NCBI RefSeq assembly: GCF_002788215.1
Contig: NZ_CP024845.1
Span: 2,666,001 to 2,730,000, forward strand
DNA from: Halohasta litchfieldiae
Lineage (GTDB): Archaea; Halobacteriota; Halobacteria; Halobacteriales; Haloferacaceae
DNA: 64,000 bases
Direction of reading: 5' to 3'
A program made the translations under genes and the position numbers. The notes beneath the pieces are model-generated. The model had not been told where the DNA came from and searched no databases. It saw nothing but the letters and a program-made list of their open reading frames with translations. This document shows, piece after piece, positions 32,581 through 40,751 of the stretch; position 1 is the stretch's first letter, and every line of letters starts with the position of its first letter.

Positions 32581-32688
32581 CTCTAAAATCTCTATGGCTG
32601 AATTTAGATCTGTCACACTAAACTCAGATCAAACACGAACCTTGTTCGATGGCCAACAGTCATATCTGTTGACTCCCAACGCCGGGAC

Positions 32689-34014
32689 ATGGATGGGCAG
32701 CTCCCGGGAGCCACCGTCGACTCCGAGGACCGAATCATCCTCCACGTCGACATGGACTGCTTTTATGCCTCCTGTGAGCGGCTGCGAGAGCCCGCCCTCG
32801 AAGGGAAGCCTGTCGTCGTTGGGATGGGATACGAACCCGGCGAGGGCCACGGCGCGGTGGCCACCGCCAGCTACGAAGCCCGCGAGTACGGCGTCGAGAG
32901 CGCCCAAGCCATCGGCCAAGCCCTCGACGCACTCCCCCATGCACCAGACGTCGACGATGACCACGATGGCCCAGTCGGCTTCTACCGGTCGGTCGACATG
33001 GACTTTTATAAATCGGTCGCGGGCGACGTGAAGGAGATTCTCCACGACCACGCCAACACGGTGCGGGAGGTGAGCATCGACGAGGCGTATCTCGACGTGA
33101 CCAACCGGACGAGTTGGGACCCAGTCGACAGTGGTGACCGGACCATCGCCGAGGGCTACGGCCGCCATATCAAACAGCAGATCAGCCGCGAGGTCGGCGT
33201 CCCCGCCAGCGTCGGGGTCGCGCCGAACATGTCGACCGCGAAAATCGCCAGCGATTTCGACAAACCGAATGGGCTGACGGTTGTCCGACCCACTGAAGTC
33301 AGTGCGTTTCTCGATCCGCTGCCGGTCGACGAGATCCACGGCGTCGGCCCGGTGACAGCGCGTGAACTCCGTGATCTGAGTATCGAGACCGCGGGTGATC
33401 TGGCCGACGCCGATCAGGGGGTGATCGTCGACCAGTTCGGCCAGCGCGGTCGGGAACTCTACGCTCGCGCTCGCGGCGAGGACGACCGCGAGGTGACGCC
33501 ACAGGGCCGACCCAAAAGTCTCTCACGGGAGTCGGCGTTCACCGAGTCGACCGCCGACAGCGAGGCCAAACGGGAAAAAGTGGGCGCACTGGCGGCGGAT
33601 GTGGCCGCCCGCGCCCAAAGTCGGGGTGCGATGTACCGGACGATTGGCATCAAGGTCGTGACGCCCCCGTTCGATGTCAACACGCGAGCGTCGTCGTTAT
33701 CGGGGCCGGTCGACGAACCTGATCTCGTCGAGTCGGTCGCACTGGATCTTCTGACCGAGTTCGCTGACGACAAGGTTCGGAAACTCGGCGTCCGTGTCTC
33801 GAACCTCGATTTTGAGGGCCAAGATCAGGCTCGACTCGATGGGTTCGAGTCGACTGGCGGAGGGGGTGCGATTGAGAGAGACGTGGAGTCGGTCGAGACC
33901 GTCGACACCTCGGGAGGTCAGATTACGGATTGGGTTGAGGAGGGTGAGTCGACGGAGTCCGATACAAAACGGAGGGTGCGTGACGGACAGTCGTCGCTCG
34001 GAGAATTTGAATAA
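32689..34014 (+). CDS. dinB: Y-family DNA polymerase IV with PCNA-binding tail
   Basis: 441 residues. DMDCFYASCE (residues 21-30) and SIDEAYLDVT carry the catalytic acidic residues; DEIHGVGPVTARELRDL is the HhH in the thumb, followed by the little-finger domain. The C-terminus is a flexible acidic linker ending GQSSLGEFE, a PIP-box-like PCNA-docking peptide (Q-x-x-L-x-x-F). It performs translesion synthesis. catatc at 32661 may be a weak TATA box for ATG 32689. The same tail is found in the small ORF at 37830. Confidence 0.93.
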   Translation: MDGQLPGATVDSEDRIILHVDMDCFYASCERLREPALEGKPVVVGMGYEPGEGHGAVATASYEAREYGVESAQAIGQALDALPHAPDVDDDHDGPVGFYRSVDMDFYKSVAGDVKEILHDHANTVREVSIDEAYLDVTNRTSWDPVDSGDRTIAEGYGRHIKQQISREVGVPASVGVAPNMSTAKIASDFDKPNGLTVVRPTEVSAFLDPLPVDEIHGVGPVTARELRDLSIETAGDLADADQGVIVDQFGQRGRELYARARGEDDREVTPQGRPKSLSRESAFTESTADSEAKREKVGALAADVAARAQSRGAMYRTIGIKVVTPPFDVNTRASSLSGPVDEPDLVESVALDLLTEFADDKVRKLGVRVSNLDFEGQDQARLDGFESTGGGGAIERDVESVETVDTSGGQITDWVEEGESTESDTKRRVRDGQSSLGEFE

Positions 34015-37801: not shown

Positions 37802-37829
37802 TACGGATTATTGTCGTCTTACCTGATAT

Positions 37830-38000
37830 ATGTCTTCTGTACAGACAGTCGGCTATGGAAGTACAGGAGTCGACCGACGGTTCGCCACGCACGTCGACGC
37901 CGGGAGTCGGCTTACAGACTGGCTCGAAGCCGACGGTTCGACTGAGTCAGCGGTCGACGACCGCCGCGAGGGCCAATCCTCGCTCGGGGAGTTCGAGTGA
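37830..38000 (+). CDS. 56-residue protein consisting of a PCNA-binding (PIP-like) tail
   Basis: ATG 37830 to TGA 37998-38000. The product begins MSSVQTVGYGSTGVDRRF; its second half (LTDWLEADGSTES, then GQSSLGEFE at the end) parallels the last 30 residues of the dinB product (ITDWVEEGESTES, then GQSSLGEFE). In the nine terminal codons, seven differ from dinB, all synonymously, so the peptide has been kept while the DNA diverged. There is no catalytic domain. Either a stand-alone PCNA-binding microprotein or a relic of a polymerase tail. It overlaps in another frame the unlikely N-terminal extension of the next gene. Confidence 0.6.
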   Translation: MSSVQTVGYGSTGVDRRFATHVDAGSRLTDWLEADGSTESAVDDRREGQSSLGEFE

Positions 38001-38076
38001 GCCAGCAAGCGGCGGTTCGGGTTCCGAAACCGGTGCCGGAATTATAAGTGAGACGGCTCCAGAGAGTTGTACAGAC

Positions 38077-38955
38077 GTGTCTACAATCCAACGACTCGCG
38101 GCCGGGGCGACCGACGACTCCCTTCGCGTCGCAATCGCGGTCGGGCTCGCCTCGGTCCCGGTCTCGCTACTGCTCTCGTGGGACTCGCTGTCGGGCGAGA
38201 CGGCTGCTACTGGCGCGCAGTTCGACGGACTCGCGGTTCTCGTCGCTGGCGTGATCGTCGGCTTCTACTACCACGACCGGTCGACGTCGACCAAGCGGGC
38301 CGGGATCTGGACCGGCCTGACCGGCGGCCTCGCGGCGGTGATCGTCTTCGGGTTTCCGACGCTCGGGGCGATCACCTCGCCGTCCGAAACCCACAGTATT
38401 ATCGTCGTGTTTGCCCCGGTTGTCGCCGTCCTCGCAGTCGGGCTCTCTGTCGGCATCGCCGTCGTCACGGCCCTCGGCACCGACTGGGTTCTCGGACGCC
38501 TCGACCGCGACCATCGGAGACGGGAGCCGGTCGACATCGATGGCCAACCCACCGGCTCACGATGGTGGGTTGCTGTAGCCCTCTATGCGGTCGTCGCGCC
38601 GGTGTGGCTGGCGGTCCTGTTGTGGCCCGACCCCGACACCTTCGGGTTCGGCCTCTCATTTCTAAGCGCGTTCGGTCTGTTTGCCTGCTCGGTCGTCGCG
38701 TTCATCGGACTGTTCCTCGATGCGACGACCCCGCGAGCCGTCGACACGTGGCAGCCGACGTGGTGGCTCTACGTGGGAGTTCCACCGGCGGTCGCCGGTT
38801 TCGTCTACCTCGCCGCGACGGTCCGGGACTCGGTCTATCCGGCTGGCGATGCGACGTTCGGGTTTTATATTGGGCTTGCGGCAGTCGCGGTCGTCTACGC
38901 CGTGGTCCGACACCGCCAGACTGGGACCGATTCGTCGTCGACCAACTTCGAGTAG
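38077..38955 (+). CDS. haloarchaeal multipass membrane protein, unknown
   Basis: 292 residues from GTG 38077 (MSTIQRLAAGATDDS), with about seven helices and a central GWTG-like loop (TKRAGIWTGLTGGLAAVIVFG). The longer ORF from 37855 would add about 75 Ser/Gly/Arg-rich residues and overlap the small ORF at 37830. attataag at 38041-38048 supports the short start. Function is not recognised. Confidence 0.6.
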   Translation: MSTIQRLAAGATDDSLRVAIAVGLASVPVSLLLSWDSLSGETAATGAQFDGLAVLVAGVIVGFYYHDRSTSTKRAGIWTGLTGGLAAVIVFGFPTLGAITSPSETHSIIVVFAPVVAVLAVGLSVGIAVVTALGTDWVLGRLDRDHRRREPVDIDGQPTGSRWWVAVALYAVVAPVWLAVLLWPDPDTFGFGLSFLSAFGLFACSVVAFIGLFLDATTPRAVDTWQPTWWLYVGVPPAVAGFVYLAATVRDSVYPAGDATFGFYIGLAAVAVVYAVVRHRQTGTDSSSTNFE

Positions 38956-38964
38956 TGGGTAAAC

Positions 38965-38972
38965 GGTTTTAC
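38965..38972 (+). promoter_or_regulatory. TATA box for the gene at 38995
   Basis: ggttttac is centred about 27 bp before GTG 38995, supporting that start as leaderless. Confidence 0.5.
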
Positions 38973-38994
38973 CAGTCGACCGACTCATCAGAGT

Positions 38995-39306
38995 GTGAAA
39001 CGATTCGTCGGCCTGCTGTCTGTCGCTGGGGCCGTGCTGTTGGCGTTTGCGGGGGCGGTTGTGTCGACTGCCGAGTTCACACTTGGTCCAGCGATGATTG
39101 GTGGCGTTCTGACCACGGAGCTACTTATCAAGGGACTGTTCGCTGGAGCGGTCGTCCTTGGACTCTGGGGGGTACATCTCCTTGTCTTGGAGTTCCTGTT
39201 GCGGACCGCGTCCAAACGCCGCGCTCACGACATCCGCAACGTGCTTCGTCTCGTCTTCGGTGCAGCCGGAATCATTGCCCTGCTGGGCGTTCTTACCGAT
39301 CAGTGA
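38995..39306 (+). CDS. small membrane protein possibly cut short by an IS
   Basis: 103 residues, with helices at about 5-25 and 40-62 and a third at about 85-100. Its TGA stop (39304-39306) uses the first two bases of the adjacent insertion element, so the original C-terminus may have been longer. Function is unknown. Confidence 0.6.
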   Translation: MKRFVGLLSVAGAVLLAFAGAVVSTAEFTLGPAMIGGVLTTELLIKGLFAGAVVLGLWGVHLLVLEFLLRTASKRRAHDIRNVLRLVFGAAGIIALLGVLTDQ

Positions 39307-40373
39307 GGGTGTCATAGAAAGCGTCACACACGAAGACGCAGGATGTTGGAACTGTGTCTACGAGCGCCAGCATCCTGCAAGAGGAGACTTCTATCGACGA
39401 GTTCTTCAATGTAATGGCGACCGAGACGCTCGCGTTGTTCGAGCATCTTGAGTTCGACTTTCTCGAAGAATTCGATGTGTTCGCCCCCGCTCGCCGGGGG
39501 CGAACACGAGATCATCACCCACCAGCACTCTTCCGAGCGTTCCTGCACTGCTACTACAAGAACGTCTACGGCATCCGTCCAGTCACGCGAGAACTCCAGA
39601 ACACGGTCGTCTGGCTCAGCTGTGGCTTCGATCGACCGCCGTCGAGAGACGCGGTCGATCGCTTCCTCACCGACCTCGAACACGTCGTCGACGAGGTCTT
39701 CGACCGCCTCGTCGAGCAGGCCGCCTGCCGCGGCCTGCTCGACTTGACCTACTCCATCGATTCCACCGACGTGAGGACGATGCCCGCCGACCAAGACGCG
39801 TCGAAAGGCTACGATCCAACCGCCGAAGAGTACTACCACGGCTACGGCTGTACGATCGTCTCGACCGGGCAAAAGATCCCGATTGCCGCGGAGTTCACCG
39901 AGAGCAAGCAAGCGCCAGAGGAGACGGCGATGCGCGTCACGTGTGACGCGCTCGCCGTCGAGAAACCGATCTGGATGCTTGGAGACAGCGCCTACGACAC
40001 GCTCGGCTGGCACGACCACCTGCTGGCCGCAGGGGTCGTGCCAGTCGCTCCGTACAACGCACGAAACACCGACGATCCGAAAGACATCGAGTACAGGGTC
40101 GAAGCCCGCATCGACGAACACAGCGAGGACGTTCAGCTGAAGCAATCGACGCTAGACGAGACGTACAACCGCCGGAGTGGAGTCGAACGAACCAACGACG
40201 CCGTCAAGGACTGCGGCCTCGGGCACGTTCGCGCCCGAGGCCGCGTCCACGCACGAGCACAAGTGTTCCTCGCGCTGTGCCTTCGTCTCGTTATTGCGAT
40301 CACCAACGACGAACGCGGAGACAATCCAGGAAGCACCGTCATCACGCTATGAGAACTATTCTATGACACCCTC
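39305..40373 (+). mobile_element. ISH11-like insertion sequence (IS5 group), 1069 bp
   Basis: Perfect 15-bp terminal inverted repeats: gagggtgtcatagaa (39305-39319) and its complement (40359-40373). The length matches the roughly 1068 bp I recall for ISH11. The flanking heptamers, gatcagt on the left and gacagct on the right, are not duplicates, so the element is not in an undisturbed insertion site. It contains one intact transposase gene. Confidence 0.9.
39354..40352 (+). CDS. IS5/ISH11-type DDE transposase
   Basis: 332 residues from GTG 39354. The catalytic aspartates are in SIDSTDVR and MLGDSAYDT. The third region YNRRSGVERTNDAVK shows the Y-x2-R-x3-E-x6-K signature of IS4/IS5 transposases. 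No frameshift or stop is seen, so the element may still be active. Confidence 0.9.
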   Translation: MSTSASILQEETSIDEFFNVMATETLALFEHLEFDFLEEFDVFAPARRGRTRDHHPPALFRAFLHCYYKNVYGIRPVTRELQNTVVWLSCGFDRPPSRDAVDRFLTDLEHVVDEVFDRLVEQAACRGLLDLTYSIDSTDVRTMPADQDASKGYDPTAEEYYHGYGCTIVSTGQKIPIAAEFTESKQAPEETAMRVTCDALAVEKPIWMLGDSAYDTLGWHDHLLAAGVVPVAPYNARNTDDPKDIEYRVEARIDEHSEDVQLKQSTLDETYNRRSGVERTNDAVKDCGLGHVRARGRVHARAQVFLALCLRLVIAITNDERGDNPGSTVITL

Positions 40374-40751
40374 GACAGCTACCCCAAGGCGCTCTCCGGC
40401 GGGATGAAACAGCGCGTTGGCATCGCGCGTGCGCTCGCCGTCGACCCCGAAATCCTCCTGCTGGACGAACCCTTTGGTAGCGTCGACGTCCGAACGCGCG
40501 ACCGCCTGCATGCCGAACTGCTCGACATCTGGAGAGAAACCGACCAGTCGGTCGTCTTCGTCACTCACGATATCGACGAGGCGGTAATGTTGGCCGACAG
40601 AATCGTGGTTATGGATTCGGAGCCGGGAACCGTTCAATCGGTGCATTCCGTTGATCTCTCGCGGCCCCGGGATCGGACAACGACGGCATTCGTCGACTAC
40701 GTTGCCCGGATTCGAGACGAACTCGGCAGTCCAACCGAAACGGGTTGCTGA
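40374..40751 (+). pseudogene. 3' remnant of a nitrate/sulfonate/taurine-type ABC ATPase
   Basis: Begins at the IS edge with SYPKALSGGMKQRVGIARAL (signature motif), then LLLDEPFGSVD (Walker B) and FVTHDIDEAVMLADR (H-loop). Walker A and everything before it are missing on the other side of the IS, where an unrelated gene lies. The 5' half was therefore deleted rather than simply split. The tail ending SPTETGC is complete. Not expected to function. Confidence 0.85.

Follow-up and report, generated by a model that had tools for sequence, protein, structure and literature searches.

An orphaned dinB 3' end as the probable source of a micro-ORF with a PCNA-binding-type tail in Halohasta litchfieldiae

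The genome of Halohasta litchfieldiae is a single 3.33-Mb replicon, of which we analysed a stretch of 64,000 nt (hereafter the window). Within it, a short reading frame of 56 codons (micro-ORF, 37830-38000, + strand, product MSSVQTVGYGSTGVDRRFATHVDAGSRLTDWLEADGSTESAVDDRREGQSSLGEFE) ends like the product of the DNA polymerase gene dinB, which lies upstream on the same strand. The locus raises the question whether this frame is a gene of its own, i.e., encodes a microprotein acting on PCNA, or whether it is a leftover of a polymerase gene. Our answer, given a probability of roughly 0.92, is that the micro-ORF represents the native 3' terminus of dinB, orphaned by a ~4-kb insertion that carried a replacement tail.

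dinB (32689-34014, +) encodes a 441-aa Y-family polymerase (Pfam IMS, IMS_HHH and IMS_C; NCBIfam DNA polymerase IV) with the C-terminus ...ITDWVEEGESTESDTKRRVRDGQSSLGEFE. In a whole-genome search, the micro-ORF peptide shows significant matches only to itself and to the tail of DinB (51% across residues 8-56 at E=2.7e-5), which confirms the initial annotation of a 56-codon ORF with a DinB-like end. The last nine residues, GQSSLGEFE, are identical in both products, and the reported codon count holds as well, i.e., seven of the nine terminal codons differ between the micro-ORF and dinB, all of them synonymously (GGC CAA TCC TCG CTC GGG GAG TTC GAG vs GGA CAG TCG TCG CTC GGA GAA TTT GAA). The similarity reflects homology and not chance. 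The homology to dinB stops short of the micro-ORF start, and the micro-ORF tail is closer to the DinB of sister species (66-70%) than to the DinB of its own genome (51%). The frame has stayed open and keeps both conserved motifs, RLTDW and GQSSLGEFE. The latter is of the PCNA-binding type found in haloarchaeal DinB tails; compared with the consensus QxxhxxAA (PMC4929162), the micro-ORF motif is missing the second of the two aromatic residues. Searches with the micro-ORF product gave no match in Pfam, NCBIfam or among PDB sequences, and RNA structure across the ORF region shows no signal (z=0.05). A single-sequence structure model (mean pLDDT 65) has no confident fold and contains one helix at residues 15-34 (low confidence).

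With regard to gene order, dinB is intact in Halohasta litorea R30 (G001) as well as in a second sister genome (G002). In both, it is directly followed on the same strand by an orthologue of the membrane-protein gene that occupies 38077-38955 (+) in the window (76% and 70% identical, respectively). This gene thus appears to be the ancestral neighbor of dinB in Halohasta, and the element TATAAGTGAGACGGC upstream of it is conserved between the window and the sisters. In the window, it directly follows the micro-ORF and not dinB. Against G001, BLASTN pairs window positions 32644-33856 with 9090-7876 and 37892-39305 with 7829-6420; in the DNA alignment with G002, 32650-33849 pairs with 10826-9625 and 37871-38918 with 9581-8550. 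That is, the native catalytic body of dinB with its Pfam domains, up to ...ARLDGFES (32689-33856, +), aligns continuously (81% nt for G001, 82% nt for G002), and the alignment starts again with the native 3' end ~4 kb past 33856, at about 37871-37892. Between the two aligned blocks lie 43-46 bases in the sisters, a stretch that belongs to the fast-evolving linker of dinB. The orphaned end (37871-38000, +; linker remnant, RLTDW, GQSSLGEFE and stop), the intergenic DNA behind it and the TATA element of the 38077 gene form one unbroken alignment with both sisters, such that the remnant is collinear with its native flanking DNA. Within the orphan linker, a 2-nt indel relative to G002 suggests a broken frame in a part where the alignment is weak. 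The region downstream of dinB thus varies within Halohasta also elsewhere: in a metagenome-assembled genome of the same genus (G003; L006 and L019), the ORF after dinB resembles a GNAT-type acetyltransferase rather than a membrane protein of the 38077 type.

The beginning of the micro-ORF is of different origin. Its ATG (37830) and the five codons after it correspond, on the opposite strand, to the BRE/TATA region of the divergent gene P0005, whose promoter-like element (ACAGAAGACATATATC, 37825-37840, -) lies about 39 nt upstream of the P0005 ATG. In P0005 as well as in its homologues from two other genera, ACAGAAGAC stands some 39-42 nt before the ATG with an AT-rich box (ATATATC or TTTACC) behind it, an arrangement that fits an archaeal BRE/TATA pair. 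The element recurs at similar spacing before the P0005 homologues in G034 and G102, a match reached in 1/1000 and 4/1000 shuffles, respectively. Homology on the side of the inserted DNA extends to about 37848 (G102) and the native dinB sequence is recognisable from 37871 at the latest (G002). The micro-ORF is therefore a chance fusion across a junction, in which P0005 promoter DNA (the first ~6 codons) precedes a dinB tail remnant that is truncated at its 5' side. The junction lies within 37849-37870; its exact place is uncertain within these about 22 bp since the linker evolves fast. We also considered AGTCGGCT, shared by the right junction and the dinB linker of the sisters, as a mark of the breakpoint and rejected it, its sharing being not above chance. 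On the left side, the alignment with the sisters stops at 33856, and the breakpoint could sit further upstream than 33857; sliding identity along dinB shows a trend towards the 3' end and no clear step.

The insert, i.e., about 33857 to 37849-37870, holds three main ORFs. P0003 (34025-35263, -) encodes a DUF6498 membrane protein (Pfam PF20108, E=5.6e-28), the best-matching homologues of which within the family show about 45% identity or less and stand beside dinB in none of the 80 loci read. P0004 (35354-36379, +) is a zinc-dependent alcohol dehydrogenase gene (Pfam ADH_N, ADH_zinc_N) with homologues of up to 73% DNA identity in other contexts. P0005 (36416-37801, -) encodes a membrane protein that falls into no known family and has homologues of 50-52% identity in G034 and G102 and of 43-45%, at other loci, in the sister Halohasta genomes. 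Apart from a weak (30%) dehydrogenase match at one locus, none of these cargo genes was seen beside dinB in 80 named dinB loci. The three together beside dinB occur in no genome examined, and a donor was not found; the nearest long DNA matches to the insert (64-73%) are located at scattered places. An origin of the cargo from a mobile element was considered and dropped, P0005 having no relative in IMG/VR. None of the three main ORFs resembles an integrase, which makes site-specific integration less likely than homologous or illegitimate recombination. Beyond the membrane-protein gene, the window contains an insertion sequence (39311-40370) with a DDE_Tnp_1 transposase (39354-40352) and the inverted ends GGTGTCATAGAA and TTCTATGACACC. 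Right after it follows an ABC-transporter ATPase ORF (40404-40751) that begins at the signature motif and whose 5' part seems to be missing.

Which of the two tails is native follows from their relatedness. Over its last 31 codons, the orphan tail agrees with G001 in 83% of the nucleotides and 84% of the residues (78% nt for G002), compared to 59% nt and 58% aa for the tail that the window's own dinB carries today, where dS is saturated. This present 3' end of dinB (33857-34014, +; linker, TDW motif and PCNA-binding-type tail) reaches 53-59% aa with the sisters, with dS saturated or above 2. The orphan is thus the native tail, while the tail now on DinB is foreign, i.e., of a donor type that replaced the one seen in the sisters. 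The same values bear on whether the dinB tail was duplicated in tandem inside this genome and the copies later separated by three genes, as the two copies in the same orientation 4 kb apart could suggest. The copies are not mutual nearest relatives, however, and this course of events has a next to negligible probability such that we consider it ruled out. The suggestion of the initial annotation that the ORF could be a relic of a duplicated polymerase tail is nevertheless supported in a more precise form: the ~4-kb insertion displaced the native end of dinB. Its observation that the peptide is conserved while the DNA is not finds its explanation in the divergence of two functional dinB lineages: each tail was under selection in its own lineage as the end of a working DinB before the two were united, which leaves a shared peptide with diverged codons. 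It is also very unlikely that the insertion arose before G001 and G002 branched off and has since disappeared from them. Recombination between the two tails could restore an intact dinB, and the uninterrupted state is known from two sister genomes only, but an extra loss is needed and the tails and downstream intergenic DNA of the sisters resemble the orphan tail throughout. We thus infer an insertion rather than a loss.

A search of 170 genomes of the family with the micro-ORF peptide recovers Halohasta dinB only, and IMG/VR holds no homologue of the micro-ORF. A profile built from 11 tails, when applied to 170 related genomes, yields strong matches at the C-termini of dinB in long frames and in a second class of 830-950-aa frames. 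No other free-standing tail is among them, the only short frames being the micro-ORF and one dinB that is truncated where its contig ends. The 830-950-aa class was discarded as a source of free tails, since the one member read (L181; G111:C60:392700-395800, minus) looks like a Hel308-type helicase by eye. This long protein ends in GDGQASLGDFG, i.e., in a tail of the DinB type, and similar profile matches of 830-950 aa occur in many genomes of the family. As to the DinB tails themselves, those of haloarchaea often contain [KRQ][LI]TDW, placed about 20-50 residues N-terminal of the closing GQ-S-L-G-[ED]-[FW]. A near-exact TDW is present in 23/80 tails (L018-L097) and other tails have SLDEF/TLDEW-like variants, such that the DinB tail looks as if it held two PCNA-binding-like motifs.

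These searches bear on the proposal of the initial annotation that the ORF encodes a free competitor or regulator of PCNA clients, i.e., that the 56-aa peptide is made and docks to PCNA via QSSLGEF. Such a role would agree with the intact RLTDW and GQSSLGEFE motifs, with the low dN/dS of the orphan tail relative to the sister tails (0.13-0.20, 31 codons) and with the existence of a small PCNA-binding inhibitor, TIP, in Thermococcales (PMC4929162). We nevertheless regard it as highly improbable. None of the 170 family genomes contains a free-standing orthologue, an outcome which the initial annotation itself had named as refuting its proposal, and the start codon, judged from sequence, lies inside the BRE/TATA element of another gene. 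On the + strand, the TATA-like ATATAT (37826-37831) would, at the usual archaeal spacing, place a transcript start downstream of the ATG. The structure model adds no confident fold. The conservation, finally, is accounted for by the time that the tail spent inside a functional dinB. Since nearly all divergence may predate the orphaning, the low dN/dS mainly reflects this period and does not inform on constraint, i.e., a recent relic and a constrained peptide are indistinguishable by it; an intact frame with low dN/dS is expected if the insertion is recent. An accidental new gene, in which the tail is expressed at a low level together with the upstream ATG such that the 56-aa peptide titrates PCNA, seems slightly harder still to believe, even if the peptide, having DinB's motif, could bind PCNA if made. 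The remnant is presumably untranslated or without function, and the micro-ORF is most probably a scar in the genome that encodes no novel regulatory microprotein.

For the preferred reading, an orphaned dinB 3' end, we propose the following course of events. The ancestral Halohasta order would have been an intact dinB followed by the membrane-protein gene now found at 38077. In the lineage of the window, about 4 kb (33857 to about 37849-37870) may then have been inserted into the variable linker of dinB. The most likely route is recombination within dinB with DNA that came from a related, unsampled haloarchaeon and included a dinB 3' end. With this end, the polymerase would have been completed in frame, so that DinB kept a PCNA-binding-type tail, and the native tail would have been left behind beside its old neighbor gene. 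There, a chance ATG in the P0005 promoter would make the remnant resemble a stand-alone gene. H. litchfieldiae tADL, with one replicon of 3.3 Mb, originates from a lake in which different genera exchange genes extensively (PMC6011602).

The feature is thus real but ordinary, i.e., a gene-end relic of an insertion that swapped the tail of a polymerase. It illustrates that a conserved peptide with diverged DNA can arise within one genome without any function of the second copy, namely when two dinB lineages that diverged as functional genes are united by gene exchange. It also shows clearly how an insertion can exchange the PCNA-binding end of a repair polymerase and leave the former end as a scar. 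For the annotation of microproteins in GC-rich archaea it is a caution, since start codons often occur there by chance close to the remnants of genes.

Among known systems, TIP is a 64-aa PCNA-binding inhibitor of Thermococcales, the gene of which is conserved in its order and the product of which has a putative N-terminal PIP and a partial PH-like region (PMC4929162). The micro-ORF product is similarly small and has a proposed PCNA-binding motif; in contrast to TIP, it is unique to one genome, its motif is C-terminal and it has no domain, i.e., the resemblance in size and motif is not membership. With other DinB/Pol IV tails of Haloferacaceae it shares GQ-S-L-G-[ED]-[FW] and the upstream TDW motif, while it is detached from the polymerase and its sequence gives no evidence of a gene start of its own. 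The arrangement as a whole recalls archaeal integrative elements at tRNA genes, where the integrating DNA supplies a replacement 3' end and a remnant of the gene end is left. The locus in the window differs from these in that a protein gene is the target, the old and the new end differ in sequence instead of being identical and no main ORF is integrase-like. The likeness lies in the outcome: dinB appears to have been completed by an incoming end, and a piece of its old end lies beyond the insert.
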